DNA from: a virus
Direction: 5' to 3' (one strand)
IMG/VR virus record: IMGVR_UViG_3300042936_000376
Location: 1-30,619 of that record
DNA length: 30,619 nucleotides
The notes beneath the pieces were generated by a model. The model had not been told where the DNA came from. It saw only the letters and a program-made list of their open reading frames with translations, and ran no database searches. Below, in pieces: positions 5,892 to 30,619 of the stretch; the first letter of the stretch is position 1, and each line of letters starts with the position of its first letter. Position numbers and translations under genes: made by a program.

Positions 5892-5926
5892 CTGCGGGGG
5901 CGGGCATCCCGTCGAAAGGTTCGACT
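5892..5926 (-). promoter_or_regulatory. Recurrent start-site motif plus hairpin upstream of 5562-5879
   Basis: On the minus strand this gap holds a perfect hairpin GTCGAA-CCT-TTCGAC (5912-5926). It is followed by TGCCCGCCCCCGCAG (5906-5892), which ends 12 bases before the ATG. The same motif precedes other structural genes: 10346-10329, 12187-12172, 13600-13585, 16565-16549 and, less closely placed, 9353-9337. Its role is unknown; a translation or RNA-processing signal is possible. Confidence 0.5.
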
Positions 5927-9315: not shown

Positions 9316-9901
9316 TGGTCTCGGGGTTCTTTACCTCTGCGGAGGGGGCAACCTTTTCGAGGCGTTCCTGCTCGTCCATGAAGGCCTCCTCATCGGTCGT
9401 CAGAATCTTTGACTCCGACCCGTTGGCCGCGGCCCATGCGGCGTTCAGCCAGATGGCCTGACACTCCGGCATCTCCCACGCACGCTTCTCGTCGATGCCG
9501 TGCTTGATGAGCGCCGCCACCACCCCGAGCGGCCACGGGATACCCACGTCCTCGGCCGTGCCTCGCTTGCTTTCAGGGGCGTCCCAGAACTTGGGCCAGC
9601 AGTCCGTCATGCAGTAGTCTGCGAACCTTTCGCATTCGGTCAGGAACTTGCCCGGGCGGGTGTCGAAACTTTTGACGAACTTCACTTCGTCCTGGTCGAG
9701 CTCGCCGATGGGCTCCTCGGCGCAAATCTTGACGGCCGTGAACAGGTCGAGCGGTGTCGGGACCGAGGCCCCCGTGATCAGCGGGGACTCGATGGCCAGA
9801 AGCCGCACGCGGTACTTCAGGCAAAACGGATAAACAGGACGGCCAAGGATTTGTACCTTGGCCGCCGGGTCTGTAAAGGCGCGCAGAAATCTTCCGTCCA
9901 C
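9299..9901 (-). CDS. Tail assembly chaperone-like protein, 200 aa
   Basis: Lies between the tail-tube gene and the tape measure, the standard place for a tail assembly chaperone. It is an alpha-helical soluble protein with several Trp residues and an acidic C-terminal tail (TTDEEAFMDEQERLEKV). The start used is the GTG at 9901 (MDGRFLRAFTDPAAKVQIL); the upstream gap is 34 bases. I see no separate ORF for a frameshifted extension, so the usual G/GT arrangement is not evident. A copy of the recurrent motif lies near its 3' end, before the tape measure start. Role inferred from position. Confidence 0.65.
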   Translation of the reverse strand: MDGRFLRAFTDPAAKVQILGRPVYPFCLKYRVRLLAIESPLITGASVPTPLDLFTAVKICAEEPIGELDQDEVKFVKSFDTRPGKFLTECERFADYCMTDCWPKFWDAPESKRGTAEDVGIPWPLGVVAALIKHGIDEKRAWEMPECQAIWLNAAWAAANGSESKILTTDEEAFMDEQERLEKVAPSAEVKNPETNVAET

Positions 9902-10316: not shown

Positions 10317-10346
10317 AGTCTTTGAAACTGCGGGAACGGGCAACCC

Positions 10347-11790: not shown

Positions 11791-12167
11791 TGGTTATCAT
11801 CAATCACCACGAGGGTGATCCAAGCCGAAAGGGTCTTATAAGTCTGGCTGGTGATGCGGACGACCTTACCCCCGACCGTCAGTTTCTTGCCGATGCCTAG
11901 GGCGGCGATGGGAACGCCTGCCACGATGACCGCCGCCGATGCCCCCGTAGACCCGTCTGGCTTCGCCCAGGAGGCCGTTGCAGCGGGTAGGCGGACGGTG
12001 TACTGGGTCCGCTCCACAAAGCCCCCAGATTCAAGCCCGGTCGTGTAGGCGGGTTCCGAGATGAGGGCCGAGAAGGTGACGGTCGAGCCGGCCGTGGCGC
12101 ACGGGATACCTAGGTCGAAGGTGATTTCCTTCGCATCGTTCAGAAACTCTTGACCGTACAGGCTCAT
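11787..12167 (-). CDS. Head-tail connector-like protein, 126 aa
   Basis: First gene after the capsid terminator. A helix (LYGQEFLNDAKEITFDLG) precedes a beta-rich domain ending KVVRITSQTYKTLSAWITLV. This looks like small head-tail joining proteins that sit between capsid and tail genes. The ATG at 12167 is only 4 bases after the recurrent motif (TTGCCCACCTCCGCAG, 12187-12172), which itself runs out of the T-tract of the terminator. Function inferred from position; no diagnostic motif. Confidence 0.6.
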   Translation of the reverse strand: MSLYGQEFLNDAKEITFDLGIPCATAGSTVTFSALISEPAYTTGLESGGFVERTQYTVRLPAATASWAKPDGSTGASAAVIVAGVPIAALGIGKKLTVGGKVVRITSQTYKTLSAWITLVVIDDNQ

Positions 12168-12185
12168 ACATCTGCGGAGGTGGGC

Positions 12186-12220
12186 AAAAAAAAGGCCCCC
12201 ATTTCTGGAGGCCTTTCATC
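12186..12220 (-). terminator. Strong intrinsic terminator after the major capsid gene
   Basis: Read on the minus strand, AAAGGCCTCC pairs with GGGGGCCTTT around a 6-base loop and runs into eight T residues. It begins about 23 bases after the capsid stop codon. A second perfect palindrome GGGGCTTTAAGCCCC (12223-12237) precedes it. Termination here would separate head genes from tail genes or reduce their level relative to capsid. Confidence 0.85.
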
Positions 12221-12242: not shown

Positions 12243-13097
12243 TTACGGGTTGTAGACCGCGGCGATCGTGCCGTTCGTGACCGCCTTGTTCGCGCCGAAC
12301 ATGAGTTCAGCCGAGGCGACCAGGTTGCGGGTGCTCTTGTCGGCCCACACGTTGTAGTAGATGCTCATGCCGAGGCCTTCGAGGGCGACGACTTCCGAGA
12401 CGAGCATACCGTCGCGGACGTGGTCGAGGGAAGGAGCGGCGGCCGCGAGAGCCACGGCCTCAGGCGCACAGGCGAAGCCGGCCAACTTCAGTTCGGACGG
12501 GAACTGGGAAGCGTAGTAGACGCCACCGTCGAAACCGTAAGCACCTTCCGAGAGGGGCAGGGAGGTCGTGCTGGTCGGGATGAGCTGGCTGTAGATGCCA
12601 GGGTTCACGATCAGGGCCTTACGGCCGGCCTTGCTGACACCGGCCCAGAGGGCCTTGAGCTGAGCGGAGCCCGGGGTGACGGCGCTGTCGGCAGCGGTCA
12701 CGGCGGCGGCGCCGAAGTTGGCGACGGTGATGGGGGCGGTAGCGAGGGCCCAGATCTTGTCGGCGAGGGCGTCGAGGTTGATCTTCACCAGGCGCTCGAG
12801 GCGGATGGAGTTCTGGATGTCAGCGTAGCCGAGACCGAAGGGCTGATAGACGTGGTCGAGGGCGACCGAGGTGGCCGAGAGGGTCGTGCCGCCGATGACA
12901 TTGAAGGCGGAGGGGTTGACCTGAGTGGCGGCCGTCGCGGAGGCGATGGCGACCTGGATGGTGTCGTTCGGCTTCTTGACGTCGGTGGAGAAGTCGGTCG
13001 AGAAGTTGCGGAGCGCGGCGAGGCGGTTCGCGAGGATGGTCTGGGACTGGGCGGCGAGGGTATCGACGATCAGCTGGGCAGCGATGGTGTTGGACAT
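12243..13097 (-). CDS. Major capsid protein, 284 aa
   Basis: Forms the icosahedral shell. Although short, it carries expected marks: an N-terminal helix (QLIVDTLAAQSQTILANRLA), a long Ala/Thr/Val-rich beta body, a helix LKALWAGVSKAGRKALIVNP reminiscent of the A-domain region of P22/HK97-fold coats, and a C-terminal LMFGANKAVTNGTIAAVYNP. Codon use is the most regular in the window, and the gene is followed by the only strong terminator, both consistent with very high expression. It follows portal, protease and scaffold in the canonical order. The start at 13097 has a pyrimidine-rich leader ending CTAAACTAAT. Confidence 0.88.
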   Translation of the reverse strand: MSNTIAAQLIVDTLAAQSQTILANRLAALRNFSTDFSTDVKKPNDTIQVAIASATAATQVNPSAFNVIGGTTLSATSVALDHVYQPFGLGYADIQNSIRLERLVKINLDALADKIWALATAPITVANFGAAAVTAADSAVTPGSAQLKALWAGVSKAGRKALIVNPGIYSQLIPTSTTSLPLSEGAYGFDGGVYYASQFPSELKLAGFACAPEAVALAAAAPSLDHVRDGMLVSEVVALEGLGMSIYYNVWADKSTRNLVASAELMFGANKAVTNGTIAAVYNP

Positions 13098-13134
13098 ATT
13101 AGTTTAGGAGAGAGTAGGGGTTGAGGGGAAAGGG

Positions 13135-13572
13135 TTACTTGGAAGCCGAGAAGATGGCGGCGCGGTTCTTCTTGAGGAACTCGGTGCGCTCCTTGCCGAA
13201 GGGCATGGTGGCATACTGCTCAGCGATTTCCTTGTCGGAGGCACGGACCGGGCTGTCGCCCTGGGGAAGGTCCACGGCGGCGACGCCGACCTTGGCCACG
13301 ATGGCCGCGGCTTCGGCGGAGGCGCTGATCTGGACGGCCGAGAGTTCGGCGACCTTGGCGGTCAGTTCTTCGACTTGCTTGGCGGAAGCGGCGAGGAGGC
13401 CTTCCAGCTCGACGAGCTTGGAGTCCTTGCTGGCGGCTTCGACCTTGAGGGCTTCGACTTCCGAGGAAGCGCCGACGGTCAACTTCTCCACGGTGGCGCG
13501 GAGGTCGTCACGTTCGGCAGAGGCGGAAGCGACGAGGGCTTCGGCGGCGACGAGTTTTTCTTCGATAGTCAT
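13135..13572 (-). CDS. Putative scaffold from an internal in-frame start, 145 aa
   Basis: Within the 282-residue ORF, the in-frame ATG at 13572 begins MTIEEKLVAAEALVASASAE, a long heptad-rich coiled coil followed by a C-terminal basic helix (KERTEFLKKNRAAIF). That is the classic layout of a capsid scaffold: coiled coil plus basic capsid-binding tail. The recurrent motif (TTGCCCGCCCCCGCAA, 13600-13585) lies 12 bases upstream, as it does at starts of other structural genes. In lambda, scaffold Nu3 is likewise an internal-start product, there of the protease gene. Independent translation is inferred; scaffold function is likely either way. Confidence 0.6.
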   Translation of the reverse strand: MTIEEKLVAAEALVASASAERDDLRATVEKLTVGASSEVEALKVEAASKDSKLVELEGLLAASAKQVEELTAKVAELSAVQISASAEAAAIVAKVGVAAVDLPQGDSPVRASDKEIAEQYATMPFGKERTEFLKKNRAAIFSASK

Positions 13573-13983
13573 GGTCTTAAAAATTGCGGGGGCGGGCAAC
13601 TTGGCGGAGGCCGAGTCGTCGCTTGAGTCGTCGTCTTCGTCCTCGCGATCCAGACGGGCGGCTTCCTCTTCGGCCCACTTGGCCGTCCGCATGATGTCGC
13701 CCGAAGTAGGTCCACCCCACAAGGCCCAGGCTACGGCTCCCGCACCGGGGAAGTCTTCATTGTCGGGCTTGTTCTTGGGGGCGTCCATGTCGCCACGGTG
13801 GCGCTGGAACCAAGGCCCCATGCGGCGAACCTTGTCCTCAGAGATGGAACCTTCGACCATGTCGCGGGCTTCGCGGATAGTCTGGTCCGTCACGCCGTCG
13901 CCCGACTTGCCTTCGGCGTGCCACTCAAGGCCGCGCCGTGCGGCTTCGGAAACATAGTCAGGGACGGGAATGGTCTGAGGCAT
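13135..13983 (-). CDS. Head morphogenesis protein with C-terminal scaffold, 282 aa
   Basis: The ATG at 13983 overlaps the protease stop by one base. Residues 1-100 carry a pattern found in several phage head proteins: ARRGLEWHAEGKSG, a helix REARDMVEGSISEDKVRRM, then WFQRHRGD and WALWGG. An acidic linker (DREDEDDDSSDDSAS) separates it from a scaffold-like coiled coil starting near residue 138. The protein may act as a full-length fusion and, from the internal start at 13572, as scaffold alone. Protease immediately upstream and capsid immediately downstream support a role in prohead assembly. The N-terminal domain function is unknown to me. Confidence 0.8.
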   Translation of the reverse strand: MPQTIPVPDYVSEAARRGLEWHAEGKSGDGVTDQTIREARDMVEGSISEDKVRRMGPWFQRHRGDMDAPKNKPDNEDFPGAGAVAWALWGGPTSGDIMRTAKWAEEEAARLDREDEDDDSSDDSASAKLPAPAIFKTMTIEEKLVAAEALVASASAERDDLRATVEKLTVGASSEVEALKVEAASKDSKLVELEGLLAASAKQVEELTAKVAELSAVQISASAEAAAIVAKVGVAAVDLPQGDSPVRASDKEIAEQYATMPFGKERTEFLKKNRAAIFSASK

Positions 13984-14768
13984 CAGAAGGACGCGAGGGC
14001 TTCGCGGAGATTCTGGACGATGCCCGTGGCCAGACCCTTGGCGGCGGCTTCCTTGCCCGTGAAGACCTGACCTTCCATGTCGGCGTCCTGCACATAGCGG
14101 CGCTTGTTGCGGACGGCGGCCCGGAACTCGTCACGGGTAGATTCGACCGAGGCCTGAAGGTAGGCACGCTGGTCGTCGGTCAGGGCGAGGCCTTCGGCGC
14201 CGGCGGCCTTGTGGATGCCAGCGGCGATGACCTCAAACTTGATGCCCTGGGCGGCGTAGTACTCTTCGAGATTCGGGACCACCATGTAGACGCCGATGCT
14301 GCCGATCTGGGAGGACGGCGTGACGACGAACTCGTCCGCCTGACTGGCGACCCAGTAGCCAGCGGACGCGGCCATGTTATCCGCGAATGCACGGGTCGGC
14401 TTGGGGAAGTTGGCGACCTTGGCCGCAAGTTCCTCGATGCCGGTGACCGTGCCGCCCGGGGAGTTGACGAAGAGAAGCACCTTCTCCACGGCGGGATTCT
14501 CGGCGGCTTCGTCGAGCCAACCAGAGACCACGTCCACGTCGGCCGCTCCCATCATGCGCTCGATAGGCGAGACGCCCTTGGAGATCGGGCCTGACAGCGG
14601 GATGACCGCCACGTTTCCGACGACGTAGGGCTTGGGCGATTCGCCGAAGAGCTGCGCGATCATGTCGCCGAGGCCTGCGGCCTTGGACGCTTCGACGTAG
14701 TCCTTCGCCCGGACGGGATTGATGAGGAGAGGCTCGAGGCCGCGGAGGCCCTGGGAAAGAAAACGCAC
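13983..14768 (-). CDS. Head maturation protease, S49 (SppA/lambda C-like), 261 aa
   Basis: Cleaves scaffold and head proteins during prohead maturation. S49 family marks are visible: FVNSPGGTVTGIEEL at residues 100-114, the nucleophile region MAASAGYWVAS with S135, and SSQIGSIGVYMVVPN at 152-166. K187 (GIHKAAG) is a candidate catalytic Lys. The N-terminal 50 residues precede the beta strand NVAVIPLSGPIS, as in phage SppA-like proteases. The start is a GTG at 14768, 5 bases after the portal stop. Unlike lambda C, the scaffold is not inside this gene but in the next one. Confidence 0.9.
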   Translation of the reverse strand: MRFLSQGLRGLEPLLINPVRAKDYVEASKAAGLGDMIAQLFGESPKPYVVGNVAVIPLSGPISKGVSPIERMMGAADVDVVSGWLDEAAENPAVEKVLLFVNSPGGTVTGIEELAAKVANFPKPTRAFADNMAASAGYWVASQADEFVVTPSSQIGSIGVYMVVPNLEEYYAAQGIKFEVIAAGIHKAAGAEGLALTDDQRAYLQASVESTRDEFRAAVRNKRRYVQDADMEGQVFTGKEAAAKGLATGIVQNLREALASF

Positions 14769-14773
14769 GGGTG

Positions 14774-16285
14774 TTAGGGGGTAGAGGGAGGAGGGGTGTT
14801 GGCGGGCTGACTCTGCTCAGGCGTGACCGGGTTAGGGTAGGTCTGAGAGATGCTTCCGTAAGGCAGGCCGAGTTCGACTTCCTTGCGGCGGATGTAAGCG
14901 ATTTCCTCGGCGATGCTGTCGATCTGCTTGTAGAACTCAGTCCCGTGGGTCTTGTAATATTCAGAGCGGGACATGAGGCCCATCTTGATGTCCTCGCGGT
15001 CGCTCTGCGCTTCTCGGCCAGCGTCAACGGTGAGGGAAGGCGGGGTGATGACCGAACACTTGTACCAGTTGCGGTCGTCGCGGATGAGGCCCTTGGCGAT
15101 ACCGTCAGAGATGATGTACTGGTAGGTCGGGATGCAGAATTGATTGATGACCATCTGCTGCACATGGCTGATGAATCGGTCGGCCTTGTTGCCAGCCAGG
15201 CGTACGCCAGCCCCGGACAGTTTGGAGGGGTCGACTACGAAATCCCAAGGGAGCGAACCGAAGGTCACGTCCCGCTGGAGCTCGGCGATAAATCCGTTAA
15301 ACGTCACCGAGGGGCGTCTAGACTCCTGATGCTCAAGTTTTTCATTGGGCTCCAAAACGATAAGCTTGCCGCCGGCCTGCTCGACGACGCCAGAGAAGCA
15401 TCGGTCGCCGCCGCCAAGTTCGGCTGCCATGTTGTCGTCGATGAAGCCGCCCGCCTTGTTCAGGACACGCGTCACCTCGGACTGGTCCTTGACCGCGCGC
15501 TTCTCGGCTTCGAGGATCTCGTCGATGTCCTGTAGGCTGTTGATTGAATGCTGTAGCAGGGGCGTGCCGCGGGATGCGCTGGACGAGTTGAAGTCCACGA
15601 TATGCATCACGGTGTTCGCCGGCATCAGGCGGCTAGAGCCGTCGGAGCGGTAGACGAAGTAGCCCACGATCTCGCCGAAGTCGCCGAAGACCACGCCGTC
15701 CCAAGTACGGTCGGGCGTGTCGCGGTCGGCAGGGTCGCCCACGCGGTGGGCCTCGATGAGCTGGATGCGGGCCTCGTCTCGGCCGTTGCGGACCTTGGCG
15801 GCGAAGGTATCGCCGTCTCGCATCCAGGCACGGGTGATGAGTTTCTGGCAGTCCTCGAAACTGAAGCGGCCAGTCACGTCCAACTTACGCGAGACCTCAT
15901 AGAAATATTCCATGTGCTCGCGGCCGATTTCCGGGTCTTCGCAGTGGGCCTGCATACGCATTCCCGAACCCACGACGTACATCACGGTGTCATTCAGAAT
16001 CTGATTGTAGAGGCCGTAGTTGCGTTCGGCATACCGGCACTTCTTGACCATCGTGTTCCGATCGCGGGAACGGAGGTCGCGGCGGGCGTCCACGTTCGCG
16101 CCCATGTAAAGAATCTGGCGGGCGTTGCTCTGCGTCACGCTCTCCCATCGAGGGTTCTGCGGATAGGCCGAACCGTTCTCGGTGTAGGCCTGCTGCTTAG
16201 GCACGGCGCCGCCCGCGATGGCCGGCTTCTTCGGCGCCTTGATGACAGGCTTGCCGGGTTTCTTCTTCGGAGACTTAGAGGCCAT
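14774..16285 (-). CDS. Portal protein, lambda gpB family, 503 aa
   Basis: Twelve copies form the DNA entry ring at the capsid vertex. Lambda-family portal marks are present: an early RDLRSRDRNTMVKKCRYAERN segment, the central MHIVDFNSSSASRGTPLL with the RG-P-L turn before a long helix, and FIAELQRDVTFGSLPWDFVV. The N-terminus is Lys/Pro-rich and probably disordered; the C-terminus is Pro-rich (PANTPPPSTP). Length is close to the family norm of about 500-530. It overlaps the gpW-like gene by 11 bases and precedes the protease, the same order as in lambda. Confidence 0.92.
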   Translation of the reverse strand: MASKSPKKKPGKPVIKAPKKPAIAGGAVPKQQAYTENGSAYPQNPRWESVTQSNARQILYMGANVDARRDLRSRDRNTMVKKCRYAERNYGLYNQILNDTVMYVVGSGMRMQAHCEDPEIGREHMEYFYEVSRKLDVTGRFSFEDCQKLITRAWMRDGDTFAAKVRNGRDEARIQLIEAHRVGDPADRDTPDRTWDGVVFGDFGEIVGYFVYRSDGSSRLMPANTVMHIVDFNSSSASRGTPLLQHSINSLQDIDEILEAEKRAVKDQSEVTRVLNKAGGFIDDNMAAELGGGDRCFSGVVEQAGGKLIVLEPNEKLEHQESRRPSVTFNGFIAELQRDVTFGSLPWDFVVDPSKLSGAGVRLAGNKADRFISHVQQMVINQFCIPTYQYIISDGIAKGLIRDDRNWYKCSVITPPSLTVDAGREAQSDREDIKMGLMSRSEYYKTHGTEFYKQIDSIAEEIAYIRRKEVELGLPYGSISQTYPNPVTPEQSQPANTPPPSTP

Positions 16286-16544: not shown

Positions 16545-16556
16545 AAATCTGCGGGT

Positions 16557-16646
16557 CTAGGCAACGGGTGGGAGGGACGGCCCCGACCCTATGCCTCCGT
16601 AGGCGCACATCCTACGACGCTTCAGAACCGTCCCTCTTGCCTTCAT
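16557..16646 (-). other. Structured TerL-gpW junction with possible 29-codon ORF
   Basis: A nested inverted repeat lies here. The outer arms are GAGGGACGG (16572-16580) and CCGTCCCTC (16628-16636), and the inner arms are CGTAGG (16598-16603) and CCTACG (16611-16616). An ATG at 16646 overlaps the TerL stop (ATGA) and opens a 29-codon frame beginning MKARGTVLKRRRMC, ending at a TAG inside the recurrent motif. The ORF may be a leader peptide or chance; the hairpin looks real. It could be a regulatory RNA structure or part of a packaging site. Confidence 0.45.
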
Positions 16647-27696: not shown

Positions 27697-28016
27697 GGCT
27701 GCTTGCCCTCCTTGGCGGCTCGCCACGCAATCACGGCGGGGTCGTCTTCCCATAGATAAGGAGACTCGCAGACCGCATCCCCCGCCTTGCGGAGCCGCTC
27801 GACCTCGGCCTTGAGGCGGGCGTAGGTGCCGACCTTGGCGGCTTCATACTCGCCGTCGAGGAGCATCAGGCGTTCCGTGTCGGCGAACAGTTTGCGGAGC
27901 CGCTCGACCTCGGCCTTGAGGCGGGCGTAGTCCTCGTAGGACACATACTGTCCATCTTCAAACTCCTCGATGGAGCAATACTTCGGGTCAATGCCGTATC
28001 GCTTCGGCTCGCTCAC
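27693..28016 (-). CDS. Coiled-coil protein with duplicated cassette, 107 aa
   Basis: GTG start at 28016 overlapping the upstream stop (GTGA). The protein contains YARLKAEVERLRK twice, at about residues 30-42 and 65-77, encoded by near-identical 39-bp DNA copies (27787-27825, 27892-27930). The C-terminus AAKEGKQP is the same as that of the 59-residue neighbour. Heptad spacing (L-x-x-x-V-x-x-L) indicates a coiled coil. The protein probably grew by duplication. Function unknown. Confidence 0.7.
   Translation of the reverse strand: MSEPKRYGIDPKYCSIEEFEDGQYVSYEDYARLKAEVERLRKLFADTERLMLLDGEYEAAKVGTYARLKAEVERLRKAGDAVCESPYLWEDDPAVIAWRAAKEGKQP
27697..27719. repeat. 23-bp C-terminal cassette, copy 1 (copy 2 at 28017-28039)
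   Basis: The 23-base block starting GGCTGCTTGCCCTCCTTGGC is present at 27697-27719 and again at 28017-28039. In each case it encodes the identical end AAKEGKQP of the protein read on the minus strand and lies next to the start of the following gene. It shows that the two adjacent small genes share a duplicated 3' end. Confidence 0.85.
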
Positions 28017-28350
28017 GGCTGCTTGCCCTCCTTGGCGGCGTTCCAGTCAGCCCATTTTCGTGCCTTGTTGATGGATATCTTCTTAATTTTTGCGATTAGT
28101 TTAAGGTAAGCATCACGCTCTTTCTGAACCATAATAAAGTCGGCTTCACATTGAATTAGCATTTCTTGATATCGTATGATTTCTTTGTTCATAATTATAT
28201 TTTGTTAGCGTCTTTCCATCGTTTAACAATTTTGAATACTGACCCGACTCCCTGCGTGATTGGGGTATTACCATCAAAGCATGAATCGATGTCAGCCATC
28301 GCATCCCAAGCCTTACGGAGCCGCTCGACCTCGGCCTTGAGGCGGGCGTT
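27787..28350. repeat. Three copies of a 39-bp coiled-coil-encoding repeat
   Basis: Copies at 27787-27825, 27892-27930 and 28313-28350 share a core containing GAGCCGCTCGACCTCGGCCT, with one or two differences in the third. All encode ARLKAEVERLRK in frame on the minus strand, two in one protein and one in the next but one. DNA identity exceeds what protein constraint needs, so recent duplication is likely. The low-GC gene at 28013-28192 lies between copies. Confidence 0.85.
28013..28192 (-). CDS. Low-GC small coiled-coil protein, 59 aa
   Basis: Short ORF. ATG at 28192 opens MNKEIIRYQEMLIQCEADFI, a mostly helical protein with basic middle (IAKIKKISINKARKW) and the shared end AAKEGKQP. Base composition of the first two thirds is strikingly A/T-rich and uses codons such as ATA, TTA and AAA that neighbours avoid, while the 3' end returns to the GC-rich repeat. 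This suggests an inserted or replaced segment from another source. Its stop overlaps the next GTG start. Function unknown. Confidence 0.65.
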   Translation of the reverse strand: MNKEIIRYQEMLIQCEADFIMVQKERDAYLKLIAKIKKISINKARKWADWNAAKEGKQP

Positions 28351-29939: not shown

Positions 29940-30203
29940 TTACTTGTTGCGCTTGGCGTACGGGCCGCGGCGGTTGAGGTTCGACCAGGAGATGCCGGCG
30001 AGGGCGATCCACGCGCGGACTGCGCCGACGGAGACGTTGAGGGCCTCGGCCGCATCGGCCTGAGACTTGCCGGCCGTGTTGAGGGCGTTCAGCTGCGGGA
30101 GCACCGAGACGAGCCGACGAGCGGCGTGGGGCAGGATGGGTCGGGTCAGCGTGAGGACGCGACCATCGACGGCTTTGATGAATGATATGGGGGCTTGGTT
30201 CAT
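29940..30203 (-). CDS. Small HTH DNA-binding protein, 87 aa
   Basis: Start taken at the ATG at 30203 (MNQAPISFIKAVDGRVLTLT), with the leader CACAAACGCAC and no Shine-Dalgarno sequence. Residues about 45-70 read GKSQADAAEALNVSVGAVRA, a helix-turn-helix, followed by a basic end (NRRGPYAKRNK). It lies 23 bases after the ligase stop. Likely a transcription regulator of early genes; it is too short and lacks the dimer domain of CI-type repressors, so a lysogeny repressor is not supported. Confidence 0.75.
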   Translation of the reverse strand: MNQAPISFIKAVDGRVLTLTRPILPHAARRLVSVLPQLNALNTAGKSQADAAEALNVSVGAVRAWIALAGISWSNLNRRGPYAKRNK

Positions 30204-30226: not shown

Positions 30227-30619
30227 TTACTTGTCGCCGCGGATGCGGACGAGGGAAGGGTGGCGGAGGGAGGCGTCGGGGGTGACGCAATGGAAGGCGA
30301 CCTCGGCGGTCTGGCCGATGACCTGGGCACGGCGGGCGAGCAGATCGCGGCGGGTGGCGTTGCTCATGCCCGTGCCGACGTTGACGTAACGACGGCCAAG
30401 GCGCACGACGATATGCCCGGCCATGCCGGCGCACTTGCCCTTACCTTCGACGACGTCCACGACCTCCACGTCCACGGTGTCGGAGGCCTTGAGTTTCTGC
30501 CAAGCTGCGGAACGGACGCCGTGCGTGTAAGGGGCGGAGGTGTCCTTGACCATGACGCCCTCGAAACCTTGCGCCGTGAAGTCGCGGAAGGCCTCCTCGG
30601 GCAGGACGCCGACGAGGGA
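30227..30619 (-). CDS. ATP-dependent DNA ligase, C-terminal part (begins within the repeat)
   Basis: Same gene as 1-619, entering the window at codon 165 inside the 127-base overlap. It repeats motif IV (EGVMVKD) and gives motif V (WQKLK), followed by the OB-fold (DVEVVDVVEGKGKCAGMAGH) and ends VRIRGDK at a TAA (30227-30229). The product joined across the circle is 294 residues. The reading frame is preserved exactly across the join, which supports circularity. Followed after 23 bases by the HTH gene. Confidence 0.93.
   Translation of the reverse strand, partial: SLVGVLPEEAFRDFTAQGFEGVMVKDTSAPYTHGVRSAAWQKLKASDTVDVEVVDVVEGKGKCAGMAGHIVVRLGRRYVNVGTGMSNATRRDLLARRAQVIGQTAEVAFHCVTPDASLRHPSLVRIRGDK
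30493..30619. repeat. Terminal overlap copy 2 (identical to 1-127)
   Basis: Second copy of the 127-base identity described at 1-127. The true unique length of the molecule is 30,492 bases if this is an assembly overlap. Confidence 0.97.

Follow-up and report, generated by a model that had tools for sequence, protein, structure and literature searches.

In-frame nested scaffolds and gene-internal start signals

In bacteriophage lambda, the scaffold Nu3 is the in-frame C-terminal part of a longer head protein, C, and an internal start additionally yields it as a separate protein (features of GenBank NC_001416). The phage analysed here, represented by the whole 30,619-nt stretch of DNA under study (the window), resembles lambda in that its scaffold is nested in frame in a longer open reading frame (ORF), the head genes are arranged in the order portal, protease, scaffold, capsid, and the protease is homologous to C (33% identity). 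It differs from lambda in that the partner of the scaffold is an N-terminal domain (N-domain) and not the protease, and in the internal, phage-specific, promoter-like motif that is proposed to serve the scaffold. Comparison with C/Nu3, already drawn in a reading of the sequence alone (the sequence-only reading), is fair as an analogy; the scaffold has no detectable sequence homology to Nu3 (probability 0.1%). Homology to gp10 of the Verrucomicrobia phage P8625 was considered as well, and none was found.

In the Mu-like phage KS10 (gp28/gp29), the scaffold is embedded in frame in the protease gene, an arrangement said to hold for many phages (PMC2628397). The KS10 scaffold thus has the protease as its partner and, in addition, is listed with an SD-like ribosome binding site, whereas the scaffold of the window phage has none. 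Herpesviruses provide a further case of nesting, with the UL26.5 promoter located inside UL26. These two overlapping in-frame genes have identical 3′ ends and encode, respectively, a protease-scaffold and the scaffold alone (PMC4498786); UL26.5 has its own transcript (PMC5786565). Unlike the window phage, this is a eukaryotic virus, and the partner is the protease. In-frame nested scaffolds are accordingly already known from lambda, Mu-like phages and herpesviruses; what is new in the present case is the partner, together with a buried start signal that evolves in concert with other sites of the same genome.

Precedents for the signal itself come from other systems. Cluster K mycobacteriophages carry Start-Associated Sequences, that is, a short, asymmetric, phage-specific sequence located just upstream of many starts (PMC3203893). 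The motif in the window differs from their consensus (GGGATAGGAGCCC), which was not matched by the motif sites of any of the loci compared; furthermore, one copy of the window motif lies inside an ORF and the motif has lineage-specific variants. In the Shigella gene virF, a gene-internal promoter has been shown experimentally to yield a leaderless mRNA and a shorter in-frame product (PMC5101355). However, virF is neither a phage gene nor a structural gene, and the window case is known from sequence alone.

The closest cultured relative of the window phage, judged by terminase and capsid, is P8625. In this phage the capsid gene comes immediately after the gene for a 330-aa ClpP-like protein, and no N-domain-scaffold ORF separates the two; nor was a TTGCC..CGCA motif seen before P8625 genes. 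Its sequence (L082, 5300-15600) instead contains ordinary TTGACA-N17-TATNNN elements roughly 7 nt ahead of several late-gene ATGs, a spacing from which leaderless mRNAs would be expected in a phage of Verrucomicrobia.

Genome organization and host

The window carries an identical 127-bp direct repeat at its termini (1-127 and 30493-30619) and is therefore probably a complete phage genome, about 30.5 kb long and opened at an arbitrary position. The minus strand carries the late genes, arranged as terminase, 89-aa gene, lambda-type portal, S49 protease, ORF 13983-13135, capsid, connector and tail genes (Table 1). SD-like sequences precede 2 of the 31 starts in the window, compared with about 5 expected by chance (16% in random windows), so that neither a promoter nor a translation reading of the motif described below can rest on an ordinary ribosome binding site. 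The leader of the capsid gene (13098-13134) lacks the motif; every lineage conserves there a C/T/A-rich, G-poor stretch (CCCTAACCCTCACCCAATCCTAACAC-ATG type) that may serve SD-less translation by remaining unstructured. In the early region, a 50-nt repeat occurs three times (27774-27823, 27879-27928 and 28300-28349; 80-94% identity).

The hosts appear to be bacteria of the phylum Verrucomicrobia (Verrucomicrobiota). The Verrucomicrobiota metagenome-assembled genome SFB_3D_50_11 includes two contigs from different phages of the group (L094 and L095), one with a fused and one with a free scaffold, an observation that supports the host phylum.

Table 1. Coordinates of the scaffold locus, neighbouring late genes and motif sites in the window.
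Feature	Coordinates	Strand	Remarks
Portal protein, lambda family	14774..16285	-	PF05136
S49 prohead protease, 261 aa, without scaffold tail	13983..14768	-	33% identity to lambda C residues 78-297
Full-length ORF, N-domain fused in frame to scaffold	13135..13983	-	282 codons/aa
N-domain, residues 1-121, phrog_2859-like head module	13621..13983	-	No similar solved structure found
Motif TTGCCCGCCCCCGCA, also coding (LPAPAIFKTM in frame); proposed compact promoter	13585..13599	-	Upstream of ATG 13572
Predicted transcription start (A), 6-nt leader	13578	-	From conserved A 6-7 nt after CGCA
Free scaffold from internal ATG 13572, predicted, 145 aa	13135..13572	-	Stand-alone homologues in L062, L076-L080, L095
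Major capsid protein, downstream of scaffold, without own motif	12243..13097	-	29% identity to P8625 gp11 (annotated P22-coat-like)
Intrinsic terminator, hairpin and U tract	12186..12217	-	Ends where next motif starts; in most relatives reaching gene 12167
Motif copy before 89-aa gene 16544 (gpW-like by position only)	16550..16564	-	
Motif copy before 126-aa gene 12167 (FII-like by position only)	12173..12187	-	
Motif copy before ATG 10316 (126 aa, tail-tube by position only)	10329..10343	-	
Motif copy, spacer one shorter, before tape-measure-like gene 9315	9338..9351	-	
Motif copy (ATGCCC..) before gene 5879	5893..5907	-	Kept in L096, L097

The ORF and its two predicted products

The stop codon of the protease gene overlaps the first ATG of ORF 13983-13135 in the sequence TGATG. 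As the sequence-only reading stated, the in-frame ATG at 13572 (13572-13570, minus strand) opens a further 145 residues, being codon 138 of the 282-codon ORF, so the scaffold shares both frame and 3′ end with a longer head ORF. In the AlphaFold2 model of the 282-aa protein, the N-domain (residues 9-120) is followed by a disordered junction (119-131) and a single 93-residue helix (140-232) that begins 2 residues after Met138; past this helix come a flexible stretch and short helices (250-280). The same reading had described a coiled coil with a basic tail. The long helix is indeed predicted, but a coiled coil was not singled out by a simple hydrophobic-periodicity test, and the tail was overstated as basic, residues 250-282 having a net charge of +2 (7 K/R, 5 D/E). 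The position of the gene between those for protease and capsid fits a phage scaffolding protein, a mostly helical structure is predicted, and the similarity to phrog_4866, a head scaffolding family, is weak (E 0.0017), with 6 of the 32 members matching, the best at 0.00045.

The partner is indeed not the protease, which is encoded by a separate upstream ORF, but the phrog_2859-like N-domain (about residues 7-121). Searches against solved structures gave no credible match to the ORF profile or to the N-domain fold. Nevertheless, the N-domain is a widespread phage module: it lies within the N-terminal part of the prohead protease in phiPsal1 and of the capsid polyprotein in CRP-821, and its structure matches include proteases, portals and stand-alone proteins of 100-130 residues. 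Its designation as a head domain is supported by these partners in other phages (prohead proteases, portal, major capsid protein [MCP]), not by a known function.

Fused and split forms among relatives

A search of viral contigs yielded 80 loci encoding a relative, 74 of which have the N-domain and the scaffold in one frame without an intervening stop. The linker between the two parts varies widely in length and sequence; nevertheless, the frame is kept in all 74 fused loci, and all 74 also have an in-frame ATG at the scaffold boundary, so that no relative was found that retains the ORF and has lost this codon. The ATG is located 2 or 3 codons earlier in L053/L055, L067/L075 and L061/L063/L069, always just before the scaffold helix; because its position shifts in this manner, it is not simply a conserved methionine.

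Some relatives do split the ORF, as the sequence-only reading had suggested checking. In L062 and L076-L080, with scaffolds 97% identical to that of the window, and in L095 (87% identical; binned in a Verrucomicrobiota metagenome-assembled genome), the N-domain is missing and the scaffold stands as a gene of its own: the motif begins no more than about ten bases past the protease stop, and the ATG of the stand-alone scaffold comes next. No second N-domain was found elsewhere on these contigs, which are fragments. Both N-domain-less groups fall inside fused lineages in the tree, which requires two changes (some forks are weak), and the losses therefore seem to be derived and to number at least two. 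Because the N-domain-less relatives keep stop, motif, ATG and scaffold, the scaffold would have a working start of its own wherever nature allows this to be checked. These phages do without the fusion, indicating that it is dispensable in them, and the function of the fusion product accordingly stays putative.

The losses stop at the motif or a few bases from it, an edge that would be explained, along with the position of the motif at gene boundaries, if it were a recombination linker between modules. This is very improbable: the motif is strand-specific and located at fixed genes, and neither its lineage-specific variants at several loci per genome nor the conserved A downstream of it (both described below) would be expected of a passive linker.

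The start-proximal motif and its constraint

The motif has the consensus TTGCC-N5/6-CGCA, is always on the coding strand, and is found 5′ of the scaffold ATG and of five other late genes (16544, 12167, 10316, 9315 and 5879), in agreement with the earlier observation that it is common to separate structural genes. At up to 3 mismatches, the window contains 5 matches compared with 0.67 expected, and as many as 5 occurred in none of 100 shuffles. Across all loci, 87 of the 101 coding-strand matches but none of the 8 opposite-strand ones are near an ATG that opens a frame. The TTG at 13599 was considered as a start codon and rejected: it shares the scaffold frame in the window group and the free genes but not in L065/66/68, in contrast to the ATG, which is universal.

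The copy inside the ORF is also coding, as the sequence-only reading recognized (LPAPAIF). Its codons TTG, CCC, GCA, TTT and AAG are invariant in 13 of 13 group members, TTG, GCA and TTT being rare (7.5%, 6.5% and 11.7% of their respective codon families), and in L065/66/68 the motif is kept but read in another frame, with SCPTPQ replacing LPAPAIF. The motif is thus constrained as DNA. Synonymous divergence is 0.085 over codons 128-142 (motif and start), compared with 0.16 for the remaining scaffold codons and 0.30 for the N-domain; this 15-codon stretch is the 7th lowest of 268 and thus not unique, the C-terminal end being low as well.

The motif also varies among lineages (for example TTTCC, TTCCAA..GCAA, CCCGAACT..GCAATA, CCGCCAAGG.TAAGA and TTTGACA..CGCAAA), and within each genome the same variant precedes several of the same genes. 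For the sites before 16544, the scaffold, 12167 and 10316, the within-genome similarity of the upstream sequences exceeded 2000 of 2000 permutations in all six gene pairs. Control pairs with the portal, protease, capsid or 10784 gene were not significant or weak; three controls involving motif-less genes show a weak within-genome signal (57 to 89 of 2000 permutations). Because the variants covary across the genes of a genome, the sites, the internal scaffold site among them, behave as if they were read by one putative trans-acting factor.

An 87-aa HTH-like protein with a weak Sigma70_r4_2 match (29940-30203) recurs in two motif groups, on some of their long contigs. It is a candidate, no more, for the motif reader, and it is absent from 17 contigs, mostly short ones. 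The longer 164-aa ORF in which it lies (30434-29940; weak Sigma70_r4 match) was examined as a possible late sigma factor and set aside, only the 87-aa part being conserved; its upstream part matches elsewhere on its own and is therefore probably another gene read in the wrong frame.

Because the ATG is kept, the motif is constrained as DNA and its variants covary with those of the other sites, the internal start at 13572 looks used and selected. The idea that the 282-residue fusion is the sole scaffold product, with Met138 and the motif as relics of an ancestral separate gene, agrees with the frame kept in all fused relatives but is the most improbable of the explanations considered, since a relic should decay, yet ATG, motif and rare codons persist, the ATG shifts without ever vanishing, and changes in the motif match those in its copies before other genes. 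The best explanation of the whole is that one ORF gives rise to two proteins by way of an independent internal start with a phage-specific late signal, the latter probably a compact promoter; we give this account as a whole a probability of roughly 0.7.

Promoter or translation signal

Among 47 distinct motif sites, 37 have an A 6 nt after CGCA, and the scaffold sites have an A at 7 nt. The distance from CGCA to the ATG ranges from 5 to 22 nt, and the position of the conserved A is independent of it; in genes 16544 and 12167 this A is the A of the start codon itself. Since it is fixed relative to CGCA at any distance from the ATG, the A can be read as the transcription start of leaderless or short-leader mRNAs. 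The motif would then probably be a compact late promoter that yields a short-leader scaffold-MCP mRNA. A conventional sigma-70 promoter at the scaffold start was ruled out, as no -35/-10 hexamers with 16-18 nt spacing are present at the 13572 site.

The principal alternative is that the motif acts in translation, as an RNA signal on a polycistronic late mRNA that is recognized by a phage-encoded or host-encoded factor in an SD-less host, with the scaffold still produced from 13572 as in lambda C/Nu3. It would account for a motif that is always near a start codon on the coding strand of phages in which SD-like sequences are not used, and coupling is possible for most motif-less genes, which overlap or abut the upstream stop. 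UUGC..GCAA/G pairing is also possible at some sites, and is present in the predicted fold at 12167. However, the stem is unformed at 3 of the 4 folded sites and is not kept in other lineages, being lost in the TTTCC, TTCCAA and CCCGAACT variants, so that a conserved hairpin as the signal was rejected; a range of 5 to 22 nt is wide for ribosome positioning; the MCP gene lacks the motif; and the copy at 12167 directly follows a terminator. There the motif starts at the end of the U tract, an arrangement kept in most relatives that reach the gene, although, because terminators leak, this site is no proof of a promoter. Taken with the other evidence, a translation signal appears unlikely, albeit far less so than a linker or a relic. 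The internal start proposed in the sequence-only reading is thus supported and extended by the covariation of the motif with its copies in the same genome, an internal promoter being likelier than a ribosome start only.

Rather more tentatively, and with the odds slightly against so specific a model, the motif could represent a new class of compact bipartite late promoter, TTGCC-N5/6-CGCA-N5/6-A+1, specific to this phage group, recognized by a fast-evolving, probably phage-encoded factor and giving leaderless or near-leaderless mRNAs, with the ratio of the two products set transcriptionally.

Proposed mechanism

Ribosomes starting at 13983, probably by coupling to the protease stop, would produce the 282-residue N-domain-scaffold fusion, and a second, independent start at ATG 13572, served by the late signal inside the coding sequence, would produce the free scaffold of 145 residues. 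With the motif as a compact promoter, transcription would begin 6-7 nt after CGCA and give a short-leader mRNA for scaffold and MCP that extends to the terminator at about 12186. Both genes lie between the internal motif and this terminator; such a promoter would therefore raise the output of these two bulk head proteins jointly above that of portal, protease and fusion, all three of which would be expressed from a longer transcript. By analogy with lambda C/Nu3, the scaffold half of the fusion would co-assemble with free scaffold, and the fusion may in this way carry the N-domain into the procapsid. The sequence itself shows the ORF, the motif, the conserved ATG and frame, the free-standing relatives, the constraint on the DNA and the concerted evolution of the sites; we infer the production of both proteins, the promoter, the stoichiometry and the role of the N-domain.

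Implications

A nested scaffold, on this evidence, can have a partner that is not the protease, and the same bases maintain both a regulatory signal and a protein linker. If the bipartite promoter model is true, the ratio of scaffold to scaffold-fusion depends on transcription instead of on a ribosome binding site, and lineages have exchanged the motif concertedly at every site without giving up the internal copy or the reading frame. The natural experiment in which the N-domain was lost, apparently twice, and the scaffold start kept makes the role of the fusion testable, and the set of motif sites gives access to the study of late gene expression in phages that infect Verrucomicrobia, for which few phages have been cultured.
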